Assembly (NCBI GenBank): GCA_008501635.1 | Contig: QQUJ01000018.1 | Location: 523,286-587,285 of the forward strand | Source of the DNA: Pseudomonadota bacterium | GTDB lineage: Bacteria; Pseudomonadota; Gammaproteobacteria; QQUJ01 | DNA: 64,000 nt | Direction of reading: 5' to 3' | Shown: positions 25,888 to 46,718 of the stretch, one piece after another | Layout of the letters: each line of letters starts with the position of its first letter | Numbering within the stretch: position 1 is the first letter of the stretch | Program-made: the position numbers and the translations under genes | The notes under the pieces: generated by a model | Told to the model about the DNA's origin: nothing | Databases searched by the model: none | What the model saw: only the letters and a program-made list of their open reading frames with translations

Positions 25888-27156
25888 TCAGGTAACGACC
25901 TTTCCTCGCGGTCTGTCTTTTCCAAAACGTTTCTCAGCCAAGGTGGTGAGATGTTGCGCGGTGACCTCATGTCCACCACGCTCGCGCACGTAACCCTCCG
26001 CGCGCTTTTTCACCATCTTGCGCAAGAAGCCTGGGATACGCGACAAACGCCGTTGCGCCTCGCTACTCCAGGCAATTTCCGTCTCCCGCTCAACATGGGG
26101 GCTGATTACCTCACCACCCACCGGCACGTAACTGCACCAAGGATCGGAGGCCATTAGTCCCCCTTCATGAGCCAAGGCGCGGGCGCGGCAACCACCGCAT
26201 AATTGGGTGTACTCGCAGCGGCCGCATTTGCCACTGAGCTTGGGGATACGCAATTGTTGGAATACCGGGGTTTGATCCCAAATATCCCAGAATGGCTGGC
26301 GGCGAATATTGGCCATCTCATCGGCAATATAAGGACAGGCGGTAATGCCACCCTCCGGGGTGACGCGGCAGTAATGGGTACCGGCGAGGCAGCTTGCGCC
26401 GTCGTAGCCCTGCACCCTGGTCAGCAATGAATCCGGATTGCGCTGATGGGCAACGCGCTGGAAATGGGGTGCGCAGCGGGCGCGGATGATCAAGTCCGCG
26501 CTGTTTTCCTGGGCCTCCAGTATCTGCTTCAATACCCGCTCATAGGCGGCCGGGCCGATGTCGGTCATGGACTCGCCTCGTCCGGTGCATACCAGGAAGA
26601 AAAAGTTCAGCACCTTGGCGCCGGTAGCGCGGGCAAATTGGATCATGCCCGGTACTTCGTAGGCGTTGTCCTCGGTGACGGAGCAATGGATCTGGAACGA
26701 CAGGCCATGACGGCGGCAAGCCTCGATGCCATTCAGGGTTTTGTGCCAGGCACCGGGGCGACCGCGGAAGTCATCGTGTTTTTTCGGATCAAGTGAATCC
26801 AGGCTGATACCGCAACCCATGGCACCCGCAGCTTGCAACGACTGTACCCGTTTGTCAGTGAGCAGCACGCCATTGGTACCCACCACCATGAACAAGCCCA
26901 GTGCGCTACCGTGTTTCAGCAGGGCTTCCAGATCACGGCGCACCAGCGGTTCTCCGCCGGTCAACACCACCATGGTCTCGACACTACGGGAGGCCACTTC
27001 GTCCAGCAAATGGCTCACCTCCTTGGTGGTTAGTTCATCCGCAGTGCCGTACCGCAAGGTATCCGCATCTAAATAGCAGTGGGCACAACGCAGATTGCAG
27101 CGACGGGTGAGGTTTACTGCCAGCAGGTAGAGATCGTTGTCAGTAGATAGGCTCAT
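25888..27156 (-). CDS. Radical SAM/SPASM protein with C-terminal PCP_red module (AhbD/NirJ-like)
   Basis: The 422-residue protein (ATG 27156) opens with a radical SAM domain carrying the cluster motif CNLRCAHC (CxxxCxxC) and TGGEPLVRRDLEALL, then a SPASM domain with CRVTPEGGITACPY and CGRCEYTQLCGGCRARA, which would bind auxiliary 4Fe-4S clusters. This layout is that of heme-modifying enzymes such as AhbD (heme b from iron-coproporphyrin) and NirJ (heme d1), but other SPASM maturases are possible. The last 65 residues (IAWSSEAQRRLSRIPGFLRK onward) form a PCP_red-like module, also found five times in the neighbouring protein at 27,314. Both genes run leftward. A link to heme or cofactor maturation is inferred. 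Confidence 0.8.
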   Translation of the reverse strand: MSLSTDNDLYLLAVNLTRRCNLRCAHCYLDADTLRYGTADELTTKEVSHLLDEVASRSVETMVVLTGGEPLVRRDLEALLKHGSALGLFMVVGTNGVLLTDKRVQSLQAAGAMGCGISLDSLDPKKHDDFRGRPGAWHKTLNGIEACRRHGLSFQIHCSVTEDNAYEVPGMIQFARATGAKVLNFFFLVCTGRGESMTDIGPAAYERVLKQILEAQENSADLIIRARCAPHFQRVAHQRNPDSLLTRVQGYDGASCLAGTHYCRVTPEGGITACPYIADEMANIRRQPFWDIWDQTPVFQQLRIPKLSGKCGRCEYTQLCGGCRARALAHEGGLMASDPWCSYVPVGGEVISPHVERETEIAWSSEAQRRLSRIPGFLRKMVKKRAEGYVRERGGHEVTAQHLTTLAEKRFGKDRPRGKVVT

Positions 27157-27313
27157 GACCAATTGTTACGTGAAAAAAAACAAGTTGTCGTAGGGTCTAA
27201 CCGGTGAACTGTTTTAACTTGGCAGGTGGTGCGTGAAACGCGCCCTGCTAAACAATGAGGGCTTTTCATTTGTACGCCATCCTGCAAGTTCAATCCGATG
27301 TACCGGTTGCACC

Positions 27314-30244: not shown

Positions 30245-33200
30245 ATGTCAGACGAAAATCAGCCCAAAGACGGTCCCAATCCTGGAGCAGGAGACACCAA
30301 CGAAAATCAAACGGTGCTCAGTCGGCGTCGATTCCTGCAGCTCCTCACCGCAGGGTCCGCGGGCGTGGCGGCTGGTTTCACCCACATGGATGTGTTGGCG
30401 TCACTGGTGGCGATCCCAGATATCAAAAATCCCCTTAAATACTATCCAGACCGCGATTGGGAGAAGGTGTACCTGGACCAATACCGGTATGACGACAGTT
30501 TCACCTGGATCTGTGCCCCCAACGATACCCACATGTGCCGTATGCGGGCGTTTGTCCGCAACGGGGTCATGATCCGTAGTGAACAGAATTATGATGCTGA
30601 TCGCTGCGGCGATCTTTATGGCAACAAGACCACCCAATCCTGGAATCCGCGCGGGTGCCTGAAGGGCTACACGTTTCAACGTCGGGTTTACGGTCCCTAT
30701 CGTCTCAGTGGACCGGTGATCCGCAAGGGGTGGAAAGAGTGGGCCGATGCGGATTTCCCCTCGCTCTCCGACAATCCGAAACTGCGCTCCAAATACCGCT
30801 TCGACGATCGTGGCAACGACACCTTTGTGCGCATGTCGTGGGAGGAGGTATCGGAGTATTGCGCCCGCGGCTTGATGGCCGTGGGCCGTACCTATAGCGG
30901 TGATGAGGGTAAACGCCGACTCATGAAGGACGGCTACGAAGAGGAGATGCTCGAACACTGGCACGGTGCGGGCACGCGCACCATGAAGATCGGCTCCTCA
31001 CTTCCAATCCATGGGATGGTCGGTAAATTCGGCCTGTTTCGCTTTGCCAATATGATGGCCCTGGTGGATCACCACGCCCGTGGCGCCACACCCGAACAAG
31101 CCCAGGGTTCGCGCGAGTGGACAGAATATACCTGGCGTGGCGACCAGGCCCCCGGCCAGCCGTTTGTCCATGGTTTGCAGACCTCCGACATCGATATGTC
31201 CGATCTGCGCTTTTCCAAATTGACCATTCAGGTGGGCAAGAACCTGGTGGAAAACAAGATGCCGGAGTCACACTGGCTCAACGAGATGATGGAACGGGGC
31301 GGCAAGATTGTCACCATCACCCCGGACTATAACGCGCCGTCGGCCAAGGCCAATTATTGGATCGGAACGCGACCCGGACTCTCGGACATCTCGGTGCTGC
31401 TGGCGGTCTCCAGGATCCTCATGGACAACGATTGGGTCGATAAGAAATTCGTTAGACAGTTCACCGACTTCCCGCTGTTGGTGCGCACCGATACGCTACG
31501 CCGCTTGCGGCCCGAAGAGGTCATCAAGGGCTATCAGGCCAAGGATCTTCGCAACGGCCCCTCGTATAAGATCCAGGGCCTGAGCGATGAGCAGCGGGAA
31601 CGCATCGGTGATTTCACCCTCTGGGATGAAAAAACGGGCCAAGTGGTCGCTATCAGCCGTGAGGAGGTGGGTGACAAGGCGAACATGAACGCCGCCCTGA
31701 CCGGAACCTTCACTGTCCACACCGTGGACGGCAACAAGGTTGAAGTCATGCCGGCCTACGAGATGTACAAGCGCCATCTCAAAGACTACGACCTTAAGAC
31801 GGTAGAGGAGATCAGCGGCGCGGACCCAGAACTCGTGGAACGCCTGGCACGAGATATCTGGGAGACCAGCAAAGCCGGGCATCCCGTTTCTGTGCACCAC
31901 GGCGAGGGCACCAATCATTATTTCCACGGCACCCTGCACAACCGGGCCTGCCATCTGCCGTTGATGTTAACCGGCAACTTCGGCAAACATGGCGCCGGCG
32001 TCTTTACCTGGGCCGGCAACTATAAAGGCGCGCTGTTTCAGGCCTCATCCTGGAGCGGCCCCGGTGTCGGTTCCTACAGCCACGAGAACCCGTTCAAGCC
32101 GGTGCTCGATGAAACGATTCGCATGGATCATCACGAGCACCTGCACAATTACACTTATGGTGAAGACGTGGCCTTCTGGGGTCACGGTGAGAGGCCGCTA
32201 ATCGTTAATACTCCCAAGGGAGGAAGAAAGGTCTTCACCGGCAAGACCCACATGCCCACACCCACCAAAGTGATGTGGTACAACAATGCCAACCTGATCA
32301 ACCAGAGCAAGTGGATCTACAACCTGATCGTCAACGTCTTTCCCAAGATCGATATGATCGTCGATCAGCAGGTGGAATGGACCGGTTCGGCGGAGTACTC
32401 CGATGTCGTGCTGCCGGCCAACTCCTGGGCCGAGTTCGAGGATCTGGAGATCGGCGGCTCCTGTTCCAATCCTTTTATCCAGGTCTGGGGTGGCAAGGGC
32501 GTCAAGCCGGTCCACGACTCCAAGGACGATGCTGAAATCTTTGCCGGTGTCGGCCGCGCCTTCGCCAAGCTGACCGGGGATCGCCGCTTTGCCGACTACT
32601 GGAAATACATCACCGAGAAAAAGGCCGGGGTTTATATCCAGCGGGTGCTGGACAACTGCACCACGACCCGCGGCAAAGACGGCCCCTACCAACTCGACAA
32701 GATACTCAAAGGTGAGTACGGCGGAGAACCGGGCTCCGCCTTGATGTTGTTCCGCACCTACCCACGGGTGCCATTTTACGAACAGCTTAATGACAGCATA
32801 CCGTTCTATACGGATCACGGCCGGATGTCGGCCTATTGTGATCTGCCCGAGGCCATCGAGTACGGCGAGAACCTGATGGTCCACCGGGAGGGGACCGAGG
32901 CAACACCCTACCTGCCTAACGTCATTGTCTCCAGCAGTCCCTACATTCGCCCTAATGACTTTGGCATTCCCCTGGATGCGATGGACCCTGATCTGCGTAC
33001 CGTACGCAACGTCAAGATGCCGTGGAGCGAGGTCAAGAATACCGTTAATCCACTTTGGAAGCAGGGATTCCGTTTTCTCTGCTCGACGCCCAAGAGTCGG
33101 CACTCCACCCATTCGTCCTGGTCGACCGTGGACTGGAACTGGATCTGGAGCACCAGTTTCAGCGATCCCTACCGCAAGGACAAACGGGCCCCCGGCGTTG

Positions 33201-33793
33201 GTGACCGGCAGATCCAGATGAATCCCCAGGCGGCCAAGGACAGTGGTTTTAATGAGGGTGACTACGTCTATGTGGATGCCAATCCCGTCGATCGCCCCTA
33301 TGTGGGTTGGAAGTTGAATGACAGCTTTCGTGCCAGGGCGTTCCGTTGTCTGGTGCGGGTCAAATTCAACCTATCCCTGCCTTACGGGATGACGATCATG
33401 AAACATACCGGGTGGATTGGCACTGAACGCACGGTCAGAGCACACGAGACCCGTGCGGATGGCCGCGCACTGGCCAAGGATACCGGCTACCAGTCCAGCT
33501 ACCGCTATGGTTCCCACCAAAGCATTACCCGAAGCTGGCTCATGCCCATGCACCAAACGGATACCCTGTTTCACAAGGACACCGGGGGCATGAATTTCGT
33601 ATTCGGCTTCGCCGTCGACAACCACGGCGTCAACACGGTTCCCAAAGAGACCCTCATTCGCATCACCAAAGCGGAAGATGGTGGGCTGCATGGCAAAGGT
33701 GTTTGGCACTCCGCCGCCACGGGGCACTCGCCGGGGGCCGAATCCGAGGAGATGCGCAAATACCTCGCCGGCGGTTTCATTACGGAGGCATAA
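30245..33793 (+). CDS. nxrA: Periplasmic nitrite oxidoreductase-like molybdopterin alpha subunit
   Basis: The 1,182-residue catalytic subunit belongs to the type II DMSO-reductase superfamily (Nar, NXR, Ser, Clr, Ddh, Ebd). A twin-arginine signal SRRRFLQLLTAG at residues 26-37 predicts a folded, Tat-exported periplasmic enzyme. Candidate ligands of the first Fe-S cluster are Cys90, His96, Cys98 and Cys138. Asp300 in WRGDQAPG aligns with the Mo-binding Asp of NarG (CDLPPAS). The segments YGPYRLSGPVIRKGWKEWAD, GAGTRTMKIG and DFPLLVRTDTLRRLRPEE resemble the Nitrospira/anammox-type NxrA, which is also periplasmic and about 1,150 residues. It is headed by the 11-bp-periodic element and followed by beta, chaperone and gamma-type genes. 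Direction of catalysis (nitrite oxidation or reduction of nitrate or another oxyanion) cannot be read from sequence. Confidence 0.78.
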   Translation: MSDENQPKDGPNPGAGDTNENQTVLSRRRFLQLLTAGSAGVAAGFTHMDVLASLVAIPDIKNPLKYYPDRDWEKVYLDQYRYDDSFTWICAPNDTHMCRMRAFVRNGVMIRSEQNYDADRCGDLYGNKTTQSWNPRGCLKGYTFQRRVYGPYRLSGPVIRKGWKEWADADFPSLSDNPKLRSKYRFDDRGNDTFVRMSWEEVSEYCARGLMAVGRTYSGDEGKRRLMKDGYEEEMLEHWHGAGTRTMKIGSSLPIHGMVGKFGLFRFANMMALVDHHARGATPEQAQGSREWTEYTWRGDQAPGQPFVHGLQTSDIDMSDLRFSKLTIQVGKNLVENKMPESHWLNEMMERGGKIVTITPDYNAPSAKANYWIGTRPGLSDISVLLAVSRILMDNDWVDKKFVRQFTDFPLLVRTDTLRRLRPEEVIKGYQAKDLRNGPSYKIQGLSDEQRERIGDFTLWDEKTGQVVAISREEVGDKANMNAALTGTFTVHTVDGNKVEVMPAYEMYKRHLKDYDLKTVEEISGADPELVERLARDIWETSKAGHPVSVHHGEGTNHYFHGTLHNRACHLPLMLTGNFGKHGAGVFTWAGNYKGALFQASSWSGPGVGSYSHENPFKPVLDETIRMDHHEHLHNYTYGEDVAFWGHGERPLIVNTPKGGRKVFTGKTHMPTPTKVMWYNNANLINQSKWIYNLIVNVFPKIDMIVDQQVEWTGSAEYSDVVLPANSWAEFEDLEIGGSCSNPFIQVWGGKGVKPVHDSKDDAEIFAGVGRAFAKLTGDRRFADYWKYITEKKAGVYIQRVLDNCTTTRGKDGPYQLDKILKGEYGGEPGSALMLFRTYPRVPFYEQLNDSIPFYTDHGRMSAYCDLPEAIEYGENLMVHREGTEATPYLPNVIVSSSPYIRPNDFGIPLDAMDPDLRTVRNVKMPWSEVKNTVNPLWKQGFRFLCSTPKSRHSTHSSWSTVDWNWIWSTSFSDPYRKDKRAPGVGDRQIQMNPQAAKDSGFNEGDYVYVDANPVDRPYVGWKLNDSFRARAFRCLVRVKFNLSLPYGMTIMKHTGWIGTERTVRAHETRADGRALAKDTGYQSSYRYGSHQSITRSWLMPMHQTDTLFHKDTGGMNFVFGFAVDNHGVNTVPKETLIRITKAEDGGLHGKGVWHSAATGHSPGAESEEMRKYLAGGFITEA

Positions 33794-33799
33794 GCGACA

Positions 33800-34144: not shown

Positions 34145-34223
34145 TTTATCAACCTTGCGACGAGCGGAGACCCTTCCCGCGCGTTAACAGGAAACCGCTA
34201 CAACCTTGATGGAGATTGAGACC

Positions 34224-35510
34224 ATGGCTGACGTCTACAACTGGCAACTCGGACGGGGAATGAGTTATCCCCACGAAGAGGCCCATCCAGAACGGCAGTT
34301 CGCCTTTGTCTTTAACATTAATCGTTGTATTGCGTGCCAGACCTGCACCATGGCCTGCAAGTCAACCTGGACCTTTGCCAGGGGGCAGGAGTACATGTGG
34401 TGGAATAACGTGGAAAGCAAACCCTATGGTGGCTATCCGCAAAATTGGGACGCCAAGCTGCTGGCGATGCTGGAAAATAAGAATCCCGATGGACAGGTGT
34501 GGCGGGCCAATGGTCAGGCCCCCGAAAAACCCTATGGGGAATTCGCCGGTAAGACCATTTTTGAGGCCGCTCCAAACCATCTTTCCACCGACGGGTCCAT
34601 GCGCGCCCTGGGTTACATCCCCTCCGATGAGGAATGGGAAAGCCCCAACATCCACGAAGAGACTGCTACCGGGAAGATCAGGGCCAAAGACCAGTGGGGT
34701 TATTCCGCCCAGTTGCCCGAGCACCGGGTTTGGTTCTTCTATCTGCAACGCCTGTGTAACCACTGCACCTATCCCGCTTGCCTGGCCGCCTGCCCCCGCA
34801 ATGCCATTTATAAACGGCCCGAAGATGGCATCGTTCTCATCGACCAGGAACGCTGCCGGGGATACCGCAAGTGTGTGGAGGCCTGTCCGTACAAGAAACC
34901 CATGTACAACTCCACCACCCGGATCAGCGAGAAGTGCATCGCCTGCTACCCGCGTATCGAGGGCAAGGATCCGACCCTGAGTCCGGACCAGGCCCCGTTG
35001 GAAACCCGCTGTATGTCCGCCTGCGTGGGCAAGATCCGTCTGCAGGGCCTGATTGAGAAGAGCGCAGACGGCAAATGGGCAAAGAACCCTGACAACCCGA
35101 TTAATTATCTGGTGCGGGAGCGCAAAGTGGCATTGCCACTCTATCCCCAGTTTGGTACTGAGCCCAATGGCTATTACATCCCACCGCGCTGGGTGCCGCG
35201 CAGTTATCTAACCCAGATGTTTGGTCCCGGTGTCGGTCATGCCATCGAACAATACAGCAGTCCCGATCGGGAACTGCTGGCGGTGTTGCAGCTGTTTCGC
35301 GCCACCCAGCAGATCATCTTTAAGTTCAGGATTGAACAAGGTCCCAAGGTCGCCGAGATCGAAAATACACTCCCCTCGGGGAAAAAGGTGGTGCAAGAGA
35401 TATTCAACGACACCATCTACGGTTACAACAAGCTGGGTAAGGAAGTGGTCCGCATCACGGTGGAAGAACCCACCTTCGAGCGGTCCAAAAATCATGTCAA
35501 CTCCATTTAG
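34224..35510 (+). CDS. nxrB: Nitrite oxidoreductase-like iron-sulfur beta subunit
   Basis: This electron-transfer subunit carries four Fe-S clusters. The start at ATG 34224 (428 residues, GGAG nine bases upstream) is preferred because MADVYNWQLGRGMSYPHEEA matches the usual N-terminus of Nitrospira-type NxrB of about 429 residues. Cluster motifs are CIACQTCTMAC (Cys35, 38, 41, 45), CNHCTYPACLAACP, CRGYRKCVEACP (Tyr where a cubane ligand would be, a Trp in NarH, implying a 3Fe-4S cluster) and CIACYPRIEG with the distal RCMSACVGKIR. It has no signal sequence and would be co-exported with the Tat-bearing alpha subunit. The alpha-beta-chaperone-gamma order is that of ser, clr and ddh operons. Confidence 0.85.
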   Translation: MADVYNWQLGRGMSYPHEEAHPERQFAFVFNINRCIACQTCTMACKSTWTFARGQEYMWWNNVESKPYGGYPQNWDAKLLAMLENKNPDGQVWRANGQAPEKPYGEFAGKTIFEAAPNHLSTDGSMRALGYIPSDEEWESPNIHEETATGKIRAKDQWGYSAQLPEHRVWFFYLQRLCNHCTYPACLAACPRNAIYKRPEDGIVLIDQERCRGYRKCVEACPYKKPMYNSTTRISEKCIACYPRIEGKDPTLSPDQAPLETRCMSACVGKIRLQGLIEKSADGKWAKNPDNPINYLVRERKVALPLYPQFGTEPNGYYIPPRWVPRSYLTQMFGPGVGHAIEQYSSPDRELLAVLQLFRATQQIIFKFRIEQGPKVAEIENTLPSGKKVVQEIFNDTIYGYNKLGKEVVRITVEEPTFERSKNHVNSI

Positions 35511-35519: not shown

Positions 35520-36392
35520 ATGAATCTCTCCGCGCCTGTGGCAAACGAAAAGAAATTGAATCCAGCCTATAGGGGTGCGAAGGAGGACACCAGCGTCCTT
35601 GATCAAGCCAGATTGACTCTCTACCAATTCCTCTCCTTGGCCACTTCGAAGCCGTTGTCTTCACGGTGGCCACAAATTCTCGATCGAGATTTCCAGGAAC
35701 TGGTTCGGGCGGCGGCTGAGGTCATCCAAAAAGATCCCCGGGCCTGTCCCGATTGTCTGGCGCCCGGCGAGATCGCCTTGGAGGCGCTGGATCTTGCGCC
35801 GTCAATCTCCTTTCTTCGGCAAACTAAAGAGGACTTCAGCGAAGAATTTGACCGCGTGTTCGGCCTCCTCATTTCCCAGGAGTGTCCCCCTTACGAAACC
35901 GAATATTGTCCCCAGACCTTTTCCGTTTATCGTTCCCATCAGCTGGCGGATATCGCCGGTTTTTATCGCGCCTTCGGCTTGGAGCCGTCGCGCAAATCCC
36001 CGGAGCGCCATGACCACATTGCCCTGGAACTGGAATTCATGGCCTGGCTGAACGCCAAGACCCTATATGCCTTGGAACAGGGCGACGAAGACCACGCGAA
36101 GCTCTGCCAGGACGCTCAAGTGCATTTTTTTCGCGATCACTTAGCCTGGTGGACAACGGCGTTTGCCCTGGCGCTGCGTAGAAAAGCGGATGGGATCAGG
36201 GATGATTCACCGCCGCAGAGTTTTCAAGGCGCGATCGGCGCCCTCCTGGCGGCATTTGTCCCCGCTGAACGAAGCATTCTTGGCATTGCTCCGCCCACCA
36301 CGCTCATCGCCGTCAAGGTAGGAGATACGCAGGACGGTGACGGGGAAGACTGCGAGGCATGCGCATTAGGTGTGGATTCAACCTTCGAGTAA
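35520..36392 (+). CDS. TorD/NarJ-type molybdoenzyme chaperone
   Basis: Dedicated chaperones of this family bind the alpha subunit before cofactor insertion and Tat export. The 290-residue all-helical protein contains ARLTLYQFLSLAT at the start, the region SEEFDRVFGLLISQECPPYETEYC, and HIALELEFMAWL (the helical core motif with E-x2-F-M-x-W-L), followed by FFRDHLAWWTTAFALAL, all typical of the TorD/DmsD fold. No signal peptide. It lies 9 bases after the beta gene, and its end is separated by 11 bases from the next gene, so it is in the middle of the operon. Confidence 0.85.
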   Translation: MNLSAPVANEKKLNPAYRGAKEDTSVLDQARLTLYQFLSLATSKPLSSRWPQILDRDFQELVRAAAEVIQKDPRACPDCLAPGEIALEALDLAPSISFLRQTKEDFSEEFDRVFGLLISQECPPYETEYCPQTFSVYRSHQLADIAGFYRAFGLEPSRKSPERHDHIALELEFMAWLNAKTLYALEQGDEDHAKLCQDAQVHFFRDHLAWWTTAFALALRRKADGIRDDSPPQSFQGAIGALLAAFVPAERSILGIAPPTTLIAVKVGDTQDGDGEDCEACALGVDSTFE

Positions 36393-36403
36393 TCACGAGA
36401 GAG

Positions 36404-37924
36404 ATGAAGATCATGCGACAAACCGTGCTTTCCACCCTGGTATTGGCCGGATTCTTTCTACCCTCTGCACTCACCTTTGCGGCTAGTCCGGAGATCAATG
36501 AACTGTATCAGCGACACTGTAGTTCCTGTCACGGGGAAAAGGGTGACGGGCAAGGCCCTGCGGCTTATTTGCTGTGGCCTAAGCCGCGGGATTTTACCCG
36601 CGGCGTGTATAAATTCCGCAGTACACCGACCGGGGCGCCGCCGACTGATCAGGATCTGCACCGTACCCTGCAACGTGGCGTCGCCGGCACCTCCATGCCT
36701 TCCTGGGATCGTCTGTCCGAACAGGAACTCACCGATGTTATCAATTATGTGAAATCTTTTTCGGATATCTTCACCTACGAGGATGCGATTGAACCGCCGA
36801 TTGCGATTGCGTCAGCCCCGAAGTCGACCGAAGCAAGCGTGCAGGCGGGGAAACAGGTCTATATCGAGATGGAGTGCGAAAAATGTCATGGTCCGCGTGG
36901 CAAGGGTGACGGATCCGCGGCTTCAACCCTCACGGATGATCTGGAACGTCCTATCCGTCCCTACGATTTCACCCGTGGTCCCGGACTGATGAAAGGCGGC
37001 GTATCACCCGAGGATATCTACCGCACCTTTATGACCGGTCTTGACGGGACGCCAATGCCGTCGTTTATCGATGACCTGACAGAGGAGCAACGCTGGCAGC
37101 TGGTCCATTATATCCAGTCCCTTTCATCCACGGGCGATGAACCAGCACCGGCAGGGCCAACAGCAACCCCAACCCTGCAAGCCGTTAAGATATCGGCCGA
37201 TCCATCCCTCGACATTGATGATCCGATCTGGGAACAGGCGACCGCGACGATTGTCCCGTTGCGTCCCCTTTGGGCAAGAGACGCTTGGGTGGACACCGTG
37301 AAGGTACAGGTCGCAATCGGTAAAAAAATGGCTGCATTTCGACTCCAGTGGCACGACACCAAAAAGAATGAGGAGGTCATACGGTTAAGGGATTTTCGGG
37401 ATGCGGTAGCGATTCAGTATGTGCCTCAGGGGGAACCCGGTGACTATGTCGGTATACCGTTTATTGGTATGGGAGACGAGCAGGACGTGGTAACTATCTG
37501 GCACTGGAAGGCCGACTGGGAAGCCGATATGGCCGCAGGGTTTGGCGACGTGGTGCAGAAATACGGTGTCACCATGGACCCGATGTCACCGCATGCCGAT
37601 CATACCAGCGATGAGATTTACCTTGCGGGTCGTGCGGCGGCCAATCCCCTCTCAGCCAATCAGCACCGCACCCCAGTCCAGGTGCTGGCGGCAAAGGGGT
37701 TCGGCACGCTGACCAGTCTGCCGGCTGCGGATCAGACCGTAGAAGGACACGGTGTGTGGCGCAACGGCATGTGGACGGTGGTCATGCGGCAGGCCCTTGA
37801 TTCAAGCTCGGCACTGGGCCAAAAGAAAATACTCCCGGTCGCCATCGCAGCATGGGACGGCAGCGATCATGACCGCAATGGGCAGAAATCCGTTTCACAA
37901 TGGATGGAATTGAGGATTGAATAA
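36404..37924 (+). CDS. Diheme cytochrome c fused to gamma-type (ethylbenzene-dehydrogenase-like) heme-b domain
   Basis: From ATG 36404 the protein has 506 residues; ATG 36413 is an alternative. A signal peptide (TVLSTLVLAGFFLPSALTFA) is followed by two cytochrome c domains with CSSCHG (about residue 41) and CEKCHG (about residue 163), then a C-terminal domain of about 240 residues with DPIWEQATATIVPLRPLW, DVVTIWHWKADWEAD and GHGVWRNGMWTVVMRQAL. This is the gamma-subunit domain of ethylbenzene dehydrogenase, DMS dehydrogenase and selenate/chlorate reductases, where it binds one b heme. Fusion of diheme c with this domain would link the FeS chain to a soluble acceptor in one polypeptide. The missing separate gamma gene supports its role as the third subunit. 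Confidence 0.85.
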   Translation: MKIMRQTVLSTLVLAGFFLPSALTFAASPEINELYQRHCSSCHGEKGDGQGPAAYLLWPKPRDFTRGVYKFRSTPTGAPPTDQDLHRTLQRGVAGTSMPSWDRLSEQELTDVINYVKSFSDIFTYEDAIEPPIAIASAPKSTEASVQAGKQVYIEMECEKCHGPRGKGDGSAASTLTDDLERPIRPYDFTRGPGLMKGGVSPEDIYRTFMTGLDGTPMPSFIDDLTEEQRWQLVHYIQSLSSTGDEPAPAGPTATPTLQAVKISADPSLDIDDPIWEQATATIVPLRPLWARDAWVDTVKVQVAIGKKMAAFRLQWHDTKKNEEVIRLRDFRDAVAIQYVPQGEPGDYVGIPFIGMGDEQDVVTIWHWKADWEADMAAGFGDVVQKYGVTMDPMSPHADHTSDEIYLAGRAAANPLSANQHRTPVQVLAAKGFGTLTSLPAADQTVEGHGVWRNGMWTVVMRQALDSSSALGQKKILPVAIAAWDGSDHDRNGQKSVSQWMELRIE

Positions 37925-37957
37925 ATACCTTTCGACGACTCACCTTAGGAGTAGCAG

Positions 37958-38692
37958 ATGAAAAAAATACGGTGGGATATTCTGATCCCCGTGGGGGTGT
38001 TTGTTTTCGCGATCAATTCCGCACAGGCCGCCAGCTACAAGGTGCTGGCGGACGGCGTCGCAAATGGCGGTATTGTACAGGGCCGGATTACCTTCGAGGG
38101 TACCCCGCCAACCCCAAAGATGTTGACGGTGGATGAAGATGTTGAGGCCTGCGGCGGCGACCGGCCTTCCGACGAGCTACTGGTTAATAAGAGTGGCGGC
38201 ATAATGAACGTCGTGCTGAGTATTACAGAAATTGCATCCGGTAAAGACTGGGGCTTTCCGGAAGAATTTGTGTACGATCAAAAGCAGTGTACATTCATTC
38301 CCCGTATATTGTTGATCAAGCCAAAGAGCAAGGGGGTGGTACTGAACAGCGATACCGTGGGACACAATTTCCACACGGTTAGCAAAGGGATCTATAACGT
38401 CAACAAGAAAATCGCCGCCGATACCAAGATGGTCGTGGCGGCAAACAAGCTTAGGAGGCCAGGGACCATTCGGGCTAAATGTGATATCCACTCATGGATG
38501 GGTGGATACTGGATCGTGGCAGAAACCCCCTATACGGTTCTCTCGGACGAGGATGGTAAATTTTCCATTACGGATATTCCTCCGGGCACCTATAAACTCA
38601 AGATCTGGCATGAAACATTGGGAGAAAGCGAACAGCAGGTGGTAGTCAAGGCCAAAGAGGCCACAGAAATCAATGCCAGCCTGAAACTTTGA
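37958..38692 (+). CDS. Exported cupredoxin-like protein with C-terminal carboxypeptidase-regulatory-like domain
   Basis: A 244-residue protein with a signal peptide (DILIPVGVFVFAINSAQA). The central part has the ligands of a blue-copper site: GHNFHT (His) and, about 45 residues later, CDIHSWMGGYW (Cys, His, Met), in the spacing of plastocyanin/azurin-type sites. The last 55 residues (EDGKFSITDIPPGTYKLKIW) are a small beta-sandwich of the carboxypeptidase-regulatory type. It follows the gamma-type cytochrome by 33 bp with RBS GGAG. A role as a periplasmic one-electron carrier is inferred from fold and neighbours; copper binding is not proven. A methylamine-utilisation-like family name would also fit. 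Confidence 0.75.
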   Translation: MKKIRWDILIPVGVFVFAINSAQAASYKVLADGVANGGIVQGRITFEGTPPTPKMLTVDEDVEACGGDRPSDELLVNKSGGIMNVVLSITEIASGKDWGFPEEFVYDQKQCTFIPRILLIKPKSKGVVLNSDTVGHNFHTVSKGIYNVNKKIAADTKMVVAANKLRRPGTIRAKCDIHSWMGGYWIVAETPYTVLSDEDGKFSITDIPPGTYKLKIWHETLGESEQQVVVKAKEATEINASLKL

Positions 38693-39123: not shown

Positions 39124-41559
39124 CTATACCGAGCCAACACCATTTGTTGTCGAGCGGTGTTTTTGACGTTGATTCCGGACTAACAAAATACCTGCCAGGA
39201 AGGTAACCATGATGGTCCCGAAGGGTGCGCCGTAGACCAGAGTGTTGTTGGTGTCAGGTGGCAGCAGCAGCCAGTACCACGTGGTCAAGGTGTGCTTGGA
39301 GCCGATCTCGCCGTTGTTCCCCTCCCAATTCGCAAACGACACCGGGATGAATTGTCCTTCAGGAAAGCTCAGATCCAACGAGCCGTCACTGTTGCTGCGG
39401 GGGCGTTTCATGAGTACACGCCAACGGCCATCTTGCCACTGGCCCTGCGCCACCAGGTCATTGCCACTGTCACGCACCACCAACTTGTTATCGGGGCCAC
39501 TGGCATCCAGTAATACCGCACGCGGCTCAATGGGCGGTTCAACCGAGCCGGCATTCCAGTACCAGATGGTGGTGGGATGCTCTGGATCCCCGTGGCGGTA
39601 CAGGGGTTTTTCAACCGGTGCCGTTGAATAGGAATTCTGTTTGGGAAATTGAATGGCGAAGGCGTCAGCGAACATGGTCTGGTCATCACCATCCGGGAAA
39701 TATTTGATCACTGGCCCGCCGGGAATACTTTCAGTCGGATCGTTCACCTCTAGTAAAAAGGCGATCTCCTCGTCGTTGTAGAGGGCCCGCACGGTGATTG
39801 CATCATTGAGCGGAGTGAACAGACGCTCCTCTTTGATAATGTTGGGCACCAATCGGAAAGTGACGGCCGGCGCTTGATTCCATGCTGCATCCTCTACATC
39901 GTCTGGCAATCCATTCGCCACTTCCACCCCTTCGATGACCGTACTTTTGCCCGGCGCGGATGCATTTGTGCGTAACGACCAGACGTAGTTGGCAACGTGC
40001 CAGCGGTCCTCCAGGGTGATCGAGTCCTCCTCCTCCTCGCTTACCGACCGATGCGAGGGCATCGGGGTGCCTGGTATCCCCACCGAGAGGCGCGTGTAGA
40101 TGTTACGGATTGTTTCATCCCGGCTGCGCTCATCATTTCCGGCCTGTGCTTCAGTTATTCGCCAGGTCCAGGGCTCGGTCAGGTCACGGGGCCAGGTACG
40201 GTAGCCCCAGTCATCGTCCAGAAACTCGCCAGAGGTGAGATCGCCACGACCTTCCGCTCCGTGACATTTTTTACAGTTTTCCTCGAAGACCTCTTTACCC
40301 CGGGAGACGGATTCCGGCGAGTAGGAAATCTGGCCACCGGTCGGTTCCTGATCGGTGATGACCCTGAAATCGGATTTCAGATAATGGCCTTCATCGTCAA
40401 AGGCCTCGTCTGCCGCATCCAGCGGCGCCCAGGTGTAGGAGATATCAAGCCGTTTCATAACCGGGATCAGGCCCTTGATCTGGGTATCGGTAAGCACACT
40501 CGACCAACCGGGCATGCTGGTCCCCGTTAATCCGAATTTGATAATGCTGAATAGATCCTCGTCCCGGGGCGGCAGACCCCCGGCGGCGGTCTTGAATTTC
40601 ATTAAGCCCTGGGTGAAATCCCGGGGCCGCGGATAGAGAAACTCCGCCGCCGGTCCATCCCCCGCGCCGTCTTCGCCGTGGCACACGGCGCAACGAAACC
40701 GGTAGATCTCCTCACTGCTCATCTTGGCCCGCTGCGAGGTGATCATATCTTTCATGCCGGTTACCGACTTGGAGATCGCTTGGTCCCACATGCGCGGTAC
40801 CTGCTCCACATAGTCATAGAGAAAGGTGATCACCTGCCACACTTCTTCCTCGTTCAACATCTCGTGCCACACTGGCATGGCCGAATTCCAGGGCATTCCA
40901 CCCGTGGGTAATCCGGGTCCGCCGGTGGTGATACGCCAGAACAGGAACGACTCCTGCAATTGAGCAATTGTGCCCACGTCCTGGAAATTGGTGGGAAGAG
41001 GATTAAACCCCTTGGCGAAATGACCCTTTCCACCCAGCATGTCGCCATGGCAATAAAAGCAATTTTGATAATAAACTTCGCTACCGGCGCGCACTGTCTC
41101 CTTATAGGTTTCCCACGCTGACTCCGGATCGCTGTTGAGTTGGTCCAATATCTCTAACCGTAGTGGGTTCTCGAGTGTCGCCAGGTCATAACTTTTGTCG
41201 TAAACCTGTATGGAGGCGGGCGGAGCAGGATGAACCTGACGCAATTCCATAGGCGTCTCGAAGGAGGGTTTTACGGCATTGTATGCGGTATAGCCCAGCA
41301 ACAGCGGTATAAAGAGCAGCAAGGCCCAGCGCAGCACCTGCTTGTTGTCGTCGCGCAATGTGGCAATGATTGGCGTCTTGAATTCCGTCCAACGCCGATC
41401 CTCACTGGAGAAGTAAAGGGTTACGCCGAGAATGGTGATGATCATATACGTGATCATCAATGACCTCGGCATAAACGGTGGAAAGGCCCAGTTGAATATC
41501 GCCCAGGCGAAGACAATTATAATGACCGCCTGCCAGAAAGCGGAAACCCTCCAATTCAT
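39124..41559 (-). CDS. Membrane-anchored triheme cytochrome c with gamma-type heme-b domain
   Basis: The 811-residue protein has two N-terminal membrane spans (residues about 9-48, AVIIIVFAWAIFNWAF and LMITYMIITILGVTLYF) plus one at about 75-92, then three cytochrome c domains with CFYCHG (about 168), CAVCHG (about 292) and CKKCHG (about 432). A C-terminal domain of about 250 residues resembles the heme-b gamma subunit of ethylbenzene dehydrogenase, followed by a last membrane span (GTIMVTFLAGILLV). It is the third gene after the CydA-like and diheme c genes; starts overlap by ATGA. It could collect electrons from the NXR-like enzyme and pass them to the CydA-like protein, or the reverse. The role is inference from domain content and operon. 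Confidence 0.82.
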   Translation of the reverse strand: MNWRVSAFWQAVIIIVFAWAIFNWAFPPFMPRSLMITYMIITILGVTLYFSSEDRRWTEFKTPIIATLRDDNKQVLRWALLLFIPLLLGYTAYNAVKPSFETPMELRQVHPAPPASIQVYDKSYDLATLENPLRLEILDQLNSDPESAWETYKETVRAGSEVYYQNCFYCHGDMLGGKGHFAKGFNPLPTNFQDVGTIAQLQESFLFWRITTGGPGLPTGGMPWNSAMPVWHEMLNEEEVWQVITFLYDYVEQVPRMWDQAISKSVTGMKDMITSQRAKMSSEEIYRFRCAVCHGEDGAGDGPAAEFLYPRPRDFTQGLMKFKTAAGGLPPRDEDLFSIIKFGLTGTSMPGWSSVLTDTQIKGLIPVMKRLDISYTWAPLDAADEAFDDEGHYLKSDFRVITDQEPTGGQISYSPESVSRGKEVFEENCKKCHGAEGRGDLTSGEFLDDDWGYRTWPRDLTEPWTWRITEAQAGNDERSRDETIRNIYTRLSVGIPGTPMPSHRSVSEEEEDSITLEDRWHVANYVWSLRTNASAPGKSTVIEGVEVANGLPDDVEDAAWNQAPAVTFRLVPNIIKEERLFTPLNDAITVRALYNDEEIAFLLEVNDPTESIPGGPVIKYFPDGDDQTMFADAFAIQFPKQNSYSTAPVEKPLYRHGDPEHPTTIWYWNAGSVEPPIEPRAVLLDASGPDNKLVVRDSGNDLVAQGQWQDGRWRVLMKRPRSNSDGSLDLSFPEGQFIPVSFANWEGNNGEIGSKHTLTTWYWLLLPPDTNNTLVYGAPFGTIMVTFLAGILLVRNQRQKHRSTTNGVGSV

Positions 41560-42380
41560 GATTGACCCTTGGTTTGTTTCGCCAGAAACTGCACGATTAT
41601 TTCCAATTCTTTGATGGTCATTCTTTCGGAAAGATCGGGCATGATGGGTGGGTATCCCTCAGCGATCACCGCAGTCGGCGCGATGATGCTGTCCCGGATC
41701 TGGTCGATGCTGAGCCGCGTGGCGACATCATTCAGGTTGGGCCCCACGGTCGATTCTGTCTCCAAAATGGAATGACAGGCCGCGCAACCGAATTTTGCGA
41801 TTGCTTCCTCGGGACTTTGGGCAAGCGGCGGTATTTCCGCCACGGTTTTTTCTTGTGCGGCCGCCACCGAAGATGTCTCTGTGGGCAGGGCCACCGTCAC
41901 CGTATTGCCATCCTTGTGCTGCAGATAAGCGATGATGGCGTCGATTTCCATTGCGGAGAGTTGCACAGGAGGTTTATCGATGGCGGGCATGGGCGACTCG
42001 GTATCGTTGGAGCCCTTTTTGCCAAACCCGCTGACAACATAGATATTCGGATCCAGCATGGACTCGCGCAGATAACCTTCGGTGTCCTTGGCTTTGCCTT
42101 GGTAGCGAGAATCCGCCATCCGCTGCAGTGATTCTTTTTCCACGTTGAATGCCAGCAGATCCGGCGCCCGGCCCAATTGATTGTGGCACAGCGTGCAGGT
42201 TCCCTTTCCTTGGTATAAATCCTTTCCCAGGGCGATGAAGGAGTCCATGGTCAATGCCCCCACGTCCACCTCTCTGTCCACCGGCGCCTCGCCTTTCATC
42301 TGTGGAAGTACATAGCTGACGGCGGTAAATACCAGGATCAGCGCAACACTGAAGCCCAGGGTTTTTAGCAACACAGTCAT
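41556..42380 (-). CDS. Membrane-anchored diheme cytochrome c
   Basis: The 274-residue protein starts with one membrane span (TLGFSVALILVFTAVSYVLP) that anchors two periplasmic cytochrome c domains, with CTLCHN at about residue 61 and CAACHS at about residue 199. A Pro/Ala/Glu-rich linker (residues about 160-185) separates the domains. Axial Met candidates are in SPMPAIDKPP and YPPIMPDLSERM. Its start overlaps the end of the CydA-like gene by ATGA and its end overlaps the triheme gene the same way, so the three are co-translated. It is a natural electron-transfer partner of the CydA-like protein. Confidence 0.85.
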   Translation of the reverse strand: MTVLLKTLGFSVALILVFTAVSYVLPQMKGEAPVDREVDVGALTMDSFIALGKDLYQGKGTCTLCHNQLGRAPDLLAFNVEKESLQRMADSRYQGKAKDTEGYLRESMLDPNIYVVSGFGKKGSNDTESPMPAIDKPPVQLSAMEIDAIIAYLQHKDGNTVTVALPTETSSVAAAQEKTVAEIPPLAQSPEEAIAKFGCAACHSILETESTVGPNLNDVATRLSIDQIRDSIIAPTAVIAEGYPPIMPDLSERMTIKELEIIVQFLAKQTKGQS

Positions 42381-44251
42381 GCCGCACTTTCTGCCGGTAC
42401 GGATTTGTTCGCGGGCGCAGGAGGTATCTGCTTAATGCCGCTCAGGTTGGCGATCCAGAAGATAAATAACAAAAAGATCAGGAACAAAAGGGTTACACCG
42501 GTGACCGTGTTGCCGACGGTTGCAAGGGTGGGGATGTAATTATCGGGGGAGTTGTCCTTCATCACCGTGTACACGTGCCAGTGGGTGCGCACAGACGAGC
42601 GAATATAACCCATCAGCGCCATCAACCAGGTAAAGGCAATCGGCAACGCGAACAGGGCATATTGGGAGCGGTCGGAGACCTTGCCCCAAGAGGATGGCAA
42701 GGTCTTTGCTCCCTTGAACATGAGGCTGTCGATCACTACGCCGGCTACAATCACAACCAACGTCGATGTCACCTGTATGACGCTGGAGCCCACCTTATAG
42801 ACAGTGTTAGTGAAATAGCCGTAGTAGATACCGGCAAAGATCACGTTTCCGATCGCCACGATGTAGATGGCAACCATCAAGGCGTTACCCCAATCTTGCC
42901 AGGAGACGGTGATGACCTTATCGGCGCGCCGATAGATCTGGAAGGAAAGGAACGTAACGATGAGCATCAGAAACACGGCGATATTCTTTGCCGGCATGAT
43001 ACCCAAAGGGCTCAGCACGGGGTGATTTACACCGCCCAGTTTTGCGATTTCATTGGACGTGTAGATCACGTTGTGGGGCGTCACCCAGACGAGAAAACCA
43101 AGCACCAGAATGACAGCGATATACTTGATAAGCCACTGGTAACGACTACTGCCCTCGGTGCGCGCCATACCGGACCAAAGATAGTAATTGCCGGCGAACA
43201 AGATAGTGCAGATCAGCACCGCCTGGATCACGAACAGCCACGCCAGAATGCCACCCATTGCCAGGATTCCCATCTGCTGGGAGTATGCATAGACTTCAGC
43301 CATCAGCCAGTAACCGGCAAACGGCAACGGCAGGAACGCGAGTATCGCAATAAAATTCGAGGTATAGCCCATCCAATCGTAGTGGGCCTTCGCCGCGGCG
43401 GTCTTCGCGCTGAGAAACTTAAAGGCCGCGTACGCTCCCACTACCGCGCCGCCAAAAGCGATATTGGCGATAAAACGATGCAGGTTTAGTGGGTTCCACA
43501 GGGGTCCTTTCATCACCTCCCAGATATTGCCGATCACAGCACCTGCGCTATCGACCCCGGAAGGCGCCATCATAAAGGTTGTCCAGGAATTGGCGACCAC
43601 CAGCAGTGTGGTGCCGACGGCGTTTAGCAGTAGTCCCAAGGTCAAGTGGACCCACTTGCTATTGCCGTAGCGCAGGGCATCCCATCCGTAGTAGTAGATA
43701 TACAGCAGCATGCTCTCGAGAAAGAACAAAACCGCATAGACCAGCATCTGCGAGCCGAACACCCGCATCATATAGTTCATAAAATCGGGATAGAGCAAAA
43801 ACAGGCACAGCGCCAGGGCGCCGCCGAACAACGCCGTTATAGCGTATGCGGTAAGGCTGATCTTCATAAACTCATGGGCCATATCGTCGTAACGATCATC
43901 GTTGGTCTTGAAACCGATGAATTCGATGACCAGTACGAAGATGGGAACCGCCAGCACCAGTGCGCCAAAAAACAGATGCATCTGGGCGACAACCCAGACA
44001 ATGGTGCGGCTGCTCACGCCAATGTTTGGATAATTCGAGCGTTTGGGTTTTGGCGCGGGGATTAAGGCCGCCCTGGTTTCTTCGCGGATTTCGTCTTTGT
44101 CGACGGCAGCATCGTGCGCCTTTGCGTCGACCTCGGCAGCCGCAGCGGCCGGTAGAAACCCGTCACCATTCAGCCCGACAATTGCCATCATCAGGACGAG
44201 CAGCACAGCACGCCATGCCCGTAGCGAGGGGTAATATAAGATCGAACTCAC
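42377..44251 (-). CDS. CydA-like (cytochrome bd oxidase subunit I-like) membrane protein without a CydB partner
   Basis: The 624-residue protein (GTG start) has a cleavable-looking N-terminal hydrophobic segment, a charged linker, and then about 14 membrane spans. Family signatures of CydA are present: MHLFFGALVLAVP (His of the first helix), FFLESMLLYIYYYGWDAL (matching FFLEST-x5-GW of E. coli CydA with the conserved Glu), NSWTTFMMAPSG, and LHRFIANIAFGG (His on helix V). The quinol-binding GRQPW motif is absent; the equivalent segment reads AEVYAYSQQMG. No cydB follows; instead a diheme and a triheme cytochrome c gene do. This resembles the unusual bd-like proteins reported in Nitrospira. An oxidase fed by cytochrome c is plausible but unproven. 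Confidence 0.8.
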   Translation of the reverse strand: MSSILYYPSLRAWRAVLLVLMMAIVGLNGDGFLPAAAAAEVDAKAHDAAVDKDEIREETRAALIPAPKPKRSNYPNIGVSSRTIVWVVAQMHLFFGALVLAVPIFVLVIEFIGFKTNDDRYDDMAHEFMKISLTAYAITALFGGALALCLFLLYPDFMNYMMRVFGSQMLVYAVLFFLESMLLYIYYYGWDALRYGNSKWVHLTLGLLLNAVGTTLLVVANSWTTFMMAPSGVDSAGAVIGNIWEVMKGPLWNPLNLHRFIANIAFGGAVVGAYAAFKFLSAKTAAAKAHYDWMGYTSNFIAILAFLPLPFAGYWLMAEVYAYSQQMGILAMGGILAWLFVIQAVLICTILFAGNYYLWSGMARTEGSSRYQWLIKYIAVILVLGFLVWVTPHNVIYTSNEIAKLGGVNHPVLSPLGIMPAKNIAVFLMLIVTFLSFQIYRRADKVITVSWQDWGNALMVAIYIVAIGNVIFAGIYYGYFTNTVYKVGSSVIQVTSTLVVIVAGVVIDSLMFKGAKTLPSSWGKVSDRSQYALFALPIAFTWLMALMGYIRSSVRTHWHVYTVMKDNSPDNYIPTLATVGNTVTGVTLLFLIFLLFIFWIANLSGIKQIPPAPANKSVPAESAA

Positions 44252-44293: not shown

Positions 44294-44446
44294 TTACTGC
44301 GCCGGGGTCAGATTCCAGTTAAGAGGCAGACCCTGGATGCCCATAATGAAATGGTCCAAACCATAAAACACCGCTAGCGTGATGACGATCGCGATTACCC
44401 AGGTCATTACGTTGCTTGATTTCCGTGCATTATTTTTTGCGCCCAT
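44294..44446 (-). CDS. 50-residue single-span membrane microprotein before the CydA-like gene
   Basis: ATG 44446, directly after a run of eight G residues that can serve as ribosome binding site, to TAA 44294. A short basic N-terminus (KNNARKSSN) is followed by one span, MTWVIAIVITLAVFYGLDHF, and a short tail ending NLTPAQ. It ends 43 bp before the CydA-like start on the same strand. Small single-span proteins such as CydX stabilise bd oxidases; sequence similarity to CydX is not evident, so this is an analogy only. The last codons overlap a GGGTCAGA repeat motif. Confidence 0.65.
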   Translation of the reverse strand: MGAKNNARKSSNVMTWVIAIVITLAVFYGLDHFIMGIQGLPLNWNLTPAQ

Positions 44447-44502
44447 ACCCCCCCCGCAGACGGTTCAGCCACAACCTGGAAGTCAGTTAAAACATCATCC
44501 GT

Positions 44503-44672
44503 GTTAAGGAACCTCTGATTAAACCGTGCCCAGTGATTCTGTTGCCCGGAAGCGACGATTTCGGTGTTGTAAAGCTTGGCAATAGCGGGCTATTAGCTGC
44601 ACTTTCCGCCTTGACCTCACCGCCTCTGAACAACACTCTCATCTGAACAGACTTGATCAGGGGTTCCTTAAC
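44503..44672. mobile_element. MITE-like element (170 bp) with 19-bp terminal inverted repeats
   Basis: GTTAAGGAACCTCTGATTA (44503-44521) and the complement of TGATCAGGGGTTCCTTAAC (44654-44672) match at 17 of 19 positions. The interior has no open frame. It looks like a non-autonomous derivative or end remnant of an insertion sequence. It sits between the two microprotein genes of the CydA-like operon. Confidence 0.65.
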
Positions 44673-44688
44673 TATTGAGACTCAAACA

Positions 44689-44937: not shown

Positions 44938-45105
44938 CTATCCATGATGTCCGCTGACACCGCCTGAATAAATGAGCAGCCACCAAAAGAACGCCAGTAC
45001 CGCGAACAGCACACCAAGAAAGAGCCCGGCACCCCAATTTGAATGCTGTTTCGCATTATTTGCAGGTTCTTCGGTAGTCGCACTTTCTCCATAAACGTCG
45101 TTCAT
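44938..45105 (-). CDS. 55-residue single-span membrane microprotein, promoter-proximal in the CydA-like operon
   Basis: ATG 45105 to TAG 44938 encodes 55 residues: a hydrophilic N-terminus (MNDVYGESATTEEPANNAKQ), one strong span (AGLFLGVLFAVLAFFWWLLI), and a short tail SGGVSGHHG whose His-His could bind a metal. It is the first coding unit after copy 3 of the island regulatory element (about 150 bp upstream), and is separated from the next small gene by two repeat elements. The clean hydrophobic design and position support a real gene; the function is unknown, possibly a small subunit of the bd-like complex. Confidence 0.65.
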   Translation of the reverse strand: MNDVYGESATTEEPANNAKQHSNWGAGLFLGVLFAVLAFFWWLLIYSGGVSGHHG

Positions 45106-45506: not shown

Positions 45507-46718
45507 CTACGGTTTGACGTGAATCCTTGGGGTGATGCACTGTGCGGTTTTGACATTTGTCTTTCCCGCCAGGATATTCTGATACAGGTGCTGTGTCTCT
45601 GGCATCGGATCCACAGCAAGTTCCTGGGCCAAAATGCGTTTGCAGGCGTGAAACTGGGCCAAGGCCTGATCTGGGCGACCGAGTCTAACCAGGTGTTCCA
45701 TGAGCGTACGGTGAACGCTTTCCCGGCACGGCTCGCGAACCAGGGCCGTGCGGCAGACCCGTGCTGCCTCGGCGTAGCGGCCACATTCCGTGTAGCATTG
45801 TGCCATGTCGGCAAGCATTTCCAGGTAGAGTTCGCGCAGCCGCTCGCGCTCTTCGGCACACCAATCCGCGTAGACGTCTTCTTCCAGGTAGTCGCCCCGG
45901 TAGAGAGATTCGGCTTCGTTGTAGCGGTGTAGTGCTTCGTCCCACTGCTGTCGACGCTGTAGCGCCCAACCTTCTGCGGTCAGGGTTTCAAAGGTCTCCG
46001 CATCCACCGTAACCGCGTCACGCCTGAGCAGGTAGGCGTTTCCGACGGTCTTTAGAATGCCTTCGCCCATGCCGGTGGTACGCAACTGTCGTCTCAAGTA
46101 GCACATCGTCACTTTAAGCCGATCCCACCCGCGGCCTTCGTCGATATTGGGCCATATGCAGTCAAAAATACGTTCCCGGTGGATCGGACGACCGACCTGG
46201 GTGACGAGAAATTTCAGTAGTGTCACAGCCTGCTTACGTTTCCATTTTTGGAGCGTGACATCACGCCCCCCCACGGCCAGCCCAAAACTTCCGAGTGTGG
46301 AGACCTGGAGCTTTCCGCGCGGCAGCATCTGAATGTGCTCTTGCTCTTTTTCGTGCAGAAAAACAATGGCCACCACCGAACCGGTGTGCGACTCCCGGAG
46401 CTGCTTTGATATGACGAGTGACGAGATGCTTACCGTGACCCAATTGCCATCCTTGCAGCGTATGCGGCAGGTCGGCACACCGTAAGGCAGATAACTCTGG
46501 AAACACCGGAAGAATTCACAATTATTGACACACAAGGGCTCGCCGCCGGGTAGCACCGCCTGCAAAACTTCGCCGCAGGATCGGTCGATCACTTCGCGGA
46601 ATGCGTAGCCGATTAGCTGTTCTGCCTGTCGGTTCCAAGCGGTGACTTGACAGCGGTGGTCGATAGCGAAGGCCGCATCGGAAGCGAGGTCAATCAATTC
46701 ACGCACCCTAGTATCCAT
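45507..46718 (-). CDS. PAS-domain transcription regulator with OmpR-type DNA-binding and BTAD domains (SARP-like)
   Basis: The 403-residue protein combines an N-terminal PAS domain (residues about 5-120, LIDLASDAAFAIDHRCQVTA), an OmpR/PhoB-type winged helix (about 135-240, VSTLGSFGLAVGGRDVTLQK and YLRRQLR) and a C-terminal bacterial transcriptional activation domain (about 245-385, LYRGDYLEEDVYADWC, GRYAEAARVCRTALVREP, LGRPDQALAQF). The last two define SARP-like activators. The PAS part has an unusual set of Cys (23, 48, 63, 67, 72, 84, 88) that could hold an Fe-S cluster or redox switch. SARP proteins bind heptamers repeated every 11 bp, exactly the pattern found three times in this block, so it is the best candidate regulator of the module. 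That link is inferred. Confidence 0.82.
   Translation of the reverse strand: MDTRVRELIDLASDAAFAIDHRCQVTAWNRQAEQLIGYAFREVIDRSCGEVLQAVLPGGEPLCVNNCEFFRCFQSYLPYGVPTCRIRCKDGNWVTVSISSLVISKQLRESHTGSVVAIVFLHEKEQEHIQMLPRGKLQVSTLGSFGLAVGGRDVTLQKWKRKQAVTLLKFLVTQVGRPIHRERIFDCIWPNIDEGRGWDRLKVTMCYLRRQLRTTGMGEGILKTVGNAYLLRRDAVTVDAETFETLTAEGWALQRRQQWDEALHRYNEAESLYRGDYLEEDVYADWCAEERERLRELYLEMLADMAQCYTECGRYAEAARVCRTALVREPCRESVHRTLMEHLVRLGRPDQALAQFHACKRILAQELAVDPMPETQHLYQNILAGKTNVKTAQCITPRIHVKP

Follow-up and report, generated by a model that had tools for sequence, protein, structure and literature searches.

Bacteria with nitrite oxidoreductase (NXR), whose electrons from nitrite stand at about +0.42 V, must feed such high-potential electrons into the membrane and still obtain reductant to fix CO2. 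How they do so is not settled, and the locus described here brings the question to a gammaproteobacterium. The window (the whole stretch of DNA analyzed, 64,000 nucleotides) encodes a cytochrome bd-like protein, related to CydA, in an operon with c-type cytochromes (Table 1). We put at roughly 85% the probability that this bd-like protein serves, through cytochrome c, as the membrane partner of a periplasmic molybdoenzyme working at high potential. The locus is a variant, in a gammaproteobacterium, of the known NXR-linked bd-like cluster (likely OR-N type) and not a new kind; its surprising parts are the Kuenenia-type NXR neighbor in a gammaproteobacterium, the exchange of molybdoenzyme partners, and the linked tetrapyrrole-type genes.

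Table 1. Features at the bd-like locus, by position in the window
Feature	Position	Strand	Basis
PPOX-like (protoporphyrinogen-oxidase-like) flavoprotein	24229..25650	-	TIGR00562 above cutoff
Radical SAM protein, NirJ2/AhbD type, C-terminal PCP_red	25888..27162	-	family/domain matches
UspPCP, two Usp domains + PCP_red repeats	27314..29563	-	domain matches
NxrA, nitrite oxidoreductase alpha, Tat signal	30245..33793	+	full-length match to Kuenenia NxrA
NxrB, Fe-S beta subunit	34206..35510	+	TIGR03478, E 3e-77
TorD-type NXR chaperone	35520..36392	+	PF02613, TIGR03482
NxrC-type gamma, diheme c (two CxxCH) + EB_dh	36359..37924	+	PF09459, TIGR03477
Cupredoxin-like protein	37958..38692	+	GHNFH...C.IHSWM pattern in sequence
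Triheme cytochrome c fused to EB_dh (NxrC-type) domain, 811 aa	39124..41559	-	3 CxxCH, domain match
c2, membrane-anchored diheme cytochrome c, 274 aa, ATGA-coupled	41556..42380	-	2 CxxCH, 1 TM
CydA-like (bd-like) multi-helix membrane protein, 624 aa	42377..44251	-	PF01654 + AF2 model + CydA fold match
Microprotein mp1, 50 aa, single TM	44294..44446	-	conserved MQGLPLN..LTPAQ
Microprotein mp2, 55 aa, single TM	44938..45105	-	conserved FFWWLLIYSGGV..HHG
PAS + BTAD transcriptional regulator	45507..46718	-	domain matches

The bd-like protein, read from a GTG start at 44251 to a stop at 42377, matched the Pfam family Cyt_bd_oxida_I (PF01654) with an E value of 4e-20 and also matched CydA structures. 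An AlphaFold2 model built from 43 relatives (pLDDT 80, pTM 0.81) gave Z scores of 31 to 34 over ~350 residues against ten CydA chains, and profile alignment matched the five N-terminal helices to those of canonical CydA (97.5% probability, E value of 8e-12). The profile alignment also paired H92 (helix I), E179 (the FFLES Glu, helix III), and H258 (helix V) with CydA H19, E107, and H186, respectively, in agreement with the CydA signatures recognized in a preliminary description of this DNA; all three were kept across the 43 aligned relatives, the sole exception being E179 in the Nitrospira bd-like_4 paralogue. At the position of CydA E99, profile alignment placed Tyr172, which was invariant among the aligned relatives. 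The window's own 98%-complete genome held no other CydA homologue, and cydB (PF02322) was not found in it. Among 60 genomes with the bd-like gene, cydB scored above the cutoff in 8, one of which (G124) has it adjoining a canonical cydA, and in 52 there was none above the cutoff. The earlier claim of a missing CydB stood, and a cydB elsewhere that co-occurs with the bd-like gene, named beforehand as contrary evidence, was not found in these genomes.

Helices occupy the place of the Q-loop in the bd-like protein, where the canonical Q-loop quinol site (K252/E257) was not found, and compared with CydA its C-terminal half contains additional helices. The GRQPW motif was absent, as the preliminary description had noted. 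Its assignment of this motif to the Q-loop was wrong: in 22 canonical CydA ORFs, GRQPW directly follows the helix-VIII Glu (E445), ~55 residues past the Met of FWxFRxM. Nor does AEVYAYSQQMG (residues 319 to 329) stand at the GRQPW position, as had been proposed; the motif order of canonical CydA ruled this out together with the profile alignment, in which residues 538 to 564, FTWLMALMGYIRSSVRTHWHVYTVM, paired with the CydA E445-GRQPW helix in a colinear but weak match (E value of ~0.003) that puts the GRQPW counterpart near 551 to 564. For CydA E445 and M393, this weak C-terminal alignment offers a matched helix with no Glu and with two invariant methionines (M544 and M547), and E445 has probably been lost. 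No quinone site was identified in the protein, and an intact quinol site in another of its loops, named beforehand as contrary evidence, was not seen. Relative to canonical CydAB, then, the fold (Z up to 34) and the equivalents of H19, E107, and H186 are shared, whereas the window protein differs in having no Q-loop, GRQPW, or CydB and in having extra helices and c-type partners.

The partners are tightly linked. ATGA stop/start overlaps join the bd-like gene to c2 (42377-42380) and c2 to the triheme gene (41556-41559), and the CxxCH counts are two and three; the preliminary description had read this pair of coupled cytochromes correctly and had missed both the EB_dh domain of the triheme protein and the adjacent NXR operon. 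In 76 of 76 loci, c2 lay directly downstream of the bd-like gene; behind it came the triheme gene or its parts in 51 of 51. With the missing quinol motif, this linkage leaves the electron exchange with periplasmic cytochromes that had been suggested for the bd-like protein well supported, as far as gene order and motifs can speak to it. The triheme protein is predicted to have three N-terminal transmembrane helices and one at the C terminus. Its halves are separate genes in the Nitrospira-type locus L166 of G326, in L171 of G371, and in L163 of G124, which encode a monoheme cytochrome and a diheme-EB_dh protein (alt NxrC); the window protein would be a fusion of these two Nitrospira subunits, apparently a new one, and their fusion suggests that they act together. 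Upstream of the bd-like gene and on the same strand, mp1 was found in 53 of 67 loci, and mp2 was present in 57 of 64, the loci without one or the other being mainly non-gammaproteobacterial; overall, the bd operon and its microproteins were kept across ~80 loci. A homologue of the PAS + BTAD regulator stood beside the bd-like gene in L002, L010, and G537.

Several minor features surround the operon. The gap of ~490 bases between mp1 and mp2 (44446-44938) holds a REP-like palindrome (by eye, ~44715-44800). ORFs resembling transposases (RAYT/Y1) occur at 48252-48953 and 63187-63666. Positions 49802-56530 encode a 2242-aa protein that begins like a lipase and carries many glycine-rich repeats of the RTX type, after which come type I secretion-like genes (both by eye). 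Most loci elsewhere have a HEAT-repeat protein between the cupredoxin gene and mp2, which was not seen in the window's cassette; the example in L012 (6387-8924, minus strand) had its best family matches among NblB and phycobilin-lyase type HEAT proteins.

A complete Kuenenia/Nitrospira-type NXR operon (30245-38692, plus strand) lies divergent to the bd cassette, 0.4 kb past the triheme gene. NxrA matched Kuenenia NxrA (7b04_B) over its full length at 1527 bits, the next best match reaching 178 bits, and its Tat signal (SRRRFLQ) is close to the N terminus; the cupredoxin-like protein has a homologue in 41 of 48 bd-like loci. The closest copy of the operon, 91% identical, was in a Sulfuricaulis sp. 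MAG (the genome of L002). NxrA of at least 60% identity was found in four gammaproteobacterial genomes (3 of the 369 class genomes sampled, plus this MAG), all four of which have a bd-like gene within ~15 kb; the fourth, G537, again has it beside NXR. A tie to every NXR-like enzyme was rejected, since a clade of 39-41% identity (L179-L181) shows no bd-like gene in the fetched stretches; a possible NXR fragment in G186 (C52) proved to be a spurious short ORF. The host genome has six COX1-family matches, the cytochrome b of bc1, and RuBisCO. Because periplasmic NXR can work as a nitrate reductase too (PMC3578206), its sequence cannot tell nitrite oxidation from nitrate reduction; the organism is a candidate nitrite oxidizer via periplasmic NXR. 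PMC6050957 lists periplasmic NXR of this type for Nitrospira, Nitrospina, and anammox bacteria alone; the gammaproteobacterial NXR extends that list as far as the literature searched goes, although other descriptions may exist.

The closest known relatives of the whole arrangement are likewise NXR linked. The bd-like protein of the Nitrospina NXR cluster, shared with the anaerobic Kuenenia, lacks quinol residues, has 14 helices, and was called enigmatic in 2013, when an alternative-complex-III or reverse-flow role was already proposed for it (PMC3578206); Mundinger et al. described the same cluster, in Nitrospira, as bd-like_3/alt_NxrC_2 (PMC6606698). Both ideas, a cytochrome c-linked oxidase and reverse flow, had already been published for Nitrospira, Nitrospina, or anammox homologues (PMC3578206, PMC6606698, PMC10839748). 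Like these clusters, the window combines a CydA-like protein without quinol residues or CydB with diheme c, monoheme c, and EB_dh subunits, cupredoxins, a TorD chaperone, and NxrABC nearby. The Nitrospirota gene order of bd, diheme, monoheme, and diheme-EB_dh (Nitrospira-type L165/L166) is that of the window, where the last two are fused, and the window bd-like protein is 47-49% identical to the Nitrospira copy. It differs in that two microproteins and the radical SAM, PPOX, and UspPCP genes are adjacent and in that its host, a gammaproteobacterium, has RuBisCO and heme-copper oxidases. Papers that cite Murali et al. (2021) assign such bd-like proteins to the OR-N family of the cytochrome bd superfamily as likely cytochrome c linked, without experimental proof (PMC10839748, PMC12342949). 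With that family, as those papers describe it, the window protein shares its CydA-like nature, the absence of a quinol site and of CydB, and c-type cytochromes encoded beside it, whereas no CydA' pair was seen in the window. In a tree without named OR-N references, the protein and the bd-like proteins of Nitrospirota formed a group separate from canonical CydA (100/100).

Two further systems show more partial likeness. The TO complexes of “Ca. Manganitrophaceae,” putative terminal oxidase complexes, also unite bd-like and cytochrome-type subunits (PMC9040806), whereas the window has no Mrp-like subunits. G371 has a bd-like/c/EB_dh set (L188:4826-8113) behind two Mrp/Nuo-like membrane subunits (by eye), like Manganitrophaceae TO_2. 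Alternative complex III (ACIII) shares the fold of its membrane subunits ActC and ActF (Z scores of 19 to 23) and differs in sequence (<10% identity); no ActB- or pentaheme ActA-type gene was found in the bd operon, which consists of bd, c2, triheme-EB_dh, and the microproteins. The ACIII match was rejected as a special signal because a canonical CydA control also matched ACIII (Z score of 18.4). That canonical CydA resembles ActC/ActF and the membrane subunit PsrC (Z scores of 14 to 18) hints at a wider fold relationship.

Relatives of the bd-like protein came from 80 loci (54-88% identity), mainly in gammaproteobacteria, many of them named as sulfur oxidizers (including Sulfuricaulis, Sedimenticola, Thiodiazotropha, and Parabeggiatoa); the non-gammaproteobacterial hosts were alphaproteobacteria, deltaproteobacteria, and Nitrospirota. 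Behind the cassette in most gammaproteobacterial loci (27 of the 42 with enough flank) stood a pair of diheme proteins of the MauG/CCP kind, a Rieske subunit of arsenite-oxidase type, and an Aio/Idr-type large subunit, the idrP1P2 pattern by which iodate reductase clusters are recognized (PMC8692401). An Idr/Aio-type enzyme was encoded in 43 of 55 bd-like genomes (counts that ignore kinship); three of the 55 had NxrA of at least 60% identity and no Idr/Aio-type enzyme, and nine, several of them incomplete, had neither. It appears to be new that, in ~40 other genomes, the same cassette accompanies a molybdoenzyme of the Idr/Aio type and not NXR. In trees, NXR-linked bd-like proteins fell in at least two places, with window/L002 and G119/G537 as separate branches, which makes partner exchange or repeated association likely. 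Since NXR is found in few gammaproteobacterial genomes and Idr/Aio-type enzymes are found in many, the job of the module would not be nitrite specific, and it looks like a reusable electron connector. It would in turn be optional for the Idr-type enzyme, as Idr-type islands on Vibrio and Azonexus plasmids lack the bd-like gene; a requirement of the module for Idr was rejected on its absence from Vibrio, Azonexus, and Thiothrix plasmid records. Cultured Sedimenticola strains (L052 and L070, Sedimenticola hydrogenitrophicus) carry the module with an Idr/Aio-type enzyme and are culturable hosts for a test. An idrP1P2BA-like cluster follows the cassette in sulfur oxidizers at L012:15806-21661 and similarly in L030, L031, and L065, and the genome of L003 has, besides its window-like copy, a second, divergent bd-like protein (L168:13502-15628) close behind an Idr cluster.

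We propose that the bd-like cassette would supply the membrane part of an electron-transfer complex that is built of modules and belongs to the bd-like/OR-N kind. The CydA-like protein would hold b-type hemes within the membrane, and the diheme and triheme-EB_dh proteins would form a periplasmic wire whose NxrC-type end domain may dock the molybdoenzyme, here NXR. Electrons from nitrite would pass from NXR through the c hemes and enter the CydA-like core at its periplasmic face; quinol would not be their source. Gene content, conservation, the heme-ligand pattern, the lack of cydB and of the quinol motif, and the change of partner enzyme are observed, whereas the physical complex, the electron direction, and the acceptor are what we infer from these comparisons; a literature search for biochemistry of any close bd-like homologue found none.

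As to the acceptor, we take quinone, at slightly less than an even chance, to be likelier than the alternatives, reached by reverse electron flow driven by the proton motive force in an ACIII-like role. It is favored by the homologue that anammox bacteria, which are strict anaerobes, have in their NXR cluster (PMC3578206), by the host's own heme-copper oxidases, and by the apparent loss of the CydA active-site residues E99 and E445; the host's bc1 and RuBisCO were counted for it as well, and the bd-like model was nearer ACIII ActF (9ilt_F) than was the canonical CydA control, with Z scores of 21.5 versus 15.8. Against it, no quinone site was identified, the alignment behind the E445 assignment is weak, the host bc1 could run reverse flow, the likeness of the model to ActF is partly common to canonical CydA (18.4 to ActC), and the residues matching H19 and E107 are conserved, as an O2 site would require. 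This last point counts toward the main rival acceptor, O2 itself, which we hold somewhat less likely, with electrons from NXR or Idr passing through the c hemes to the CydA-like heme pair, as is assumed for OR-N. OR-N proteins are described as likely c-linked O2 reductases without experimental proof (PMC10839748), and COX1 is missing from four Nitrospirota genomes that carry bd-like genes. Yet the host has several heme-copper oxidases, which also makes the bd-like protein unlikely as its sole terminal oxidase; Tyr stands at E99, and the E445 helix lacks Glu in the weak alignment; the anammox homologue belongs to anaerobes (PMC3578206); and the Nitrospira paralogue proposed as a terminal oxidase is another, bd-like_2 (PMC6606698).

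A forward quinol:cytochrome c step, feeding NXR as a nitrate reductase or the Idr-type enzyme as an iodate reductase, is quite improbable: many hosts are named as sulfur oxidizers and clusters of the idrP1P2 type are regarded as markers of iodate reduction (PMC8692401), but the protein has no quinol motif, and the Vibrio and Azonexus islands indicate that the enzyme needs no such partner. Very improbable indeed is a CydA-like protein that has lost redox catalysis and, with its heme b, merely anchors the periplasmic enzyme in the membrane or offers a platform for its assembly; the changing enzymes and constantly linked cytochromes would suit it, but the strongly conserved heme-ligand positions argue for redox use.

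The c-linked membrane partner that we favor may also have a cofactor of its own. In the window, as in most loci from gammaproteobacteria, the cassette has radical SAM, PPOX-like, and UspPCP genes at its flanks (37 of 54, 34 of 44, and 40 of 54 bd-like loci, respectively), and some of the missing ones are flank cutoffs, as in the genome of L002, which has all three just past the locus. A literature search found nothing on tetrapyrrole genes together with bd-like proteins, and the association appears to be new. The linked genes are a lead to a special heme in the bd-like protein and offer a testable idea on its cofactor. We consider it unlikely, if worth stating, that the cassette is in full a plug-in respiratory module, swapped among unrelated periplasmic molybdoenzymes (NXR and the Idr/Aio type) with its own tetrapyrrole genes, a dedicated undescribed heme, and cytochrome c/quinone transfer; in such a module, the tetrapyrrole-modifying genes that the cassette brings along would point to a dedicated heme in the CydA-like core. 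Among 185 class genomes, UspPCP of at least 53% identity occurred in four, all among the five with a bd-like gene and each time next to it (Fisher p ~1e-7, relatedness ignored).
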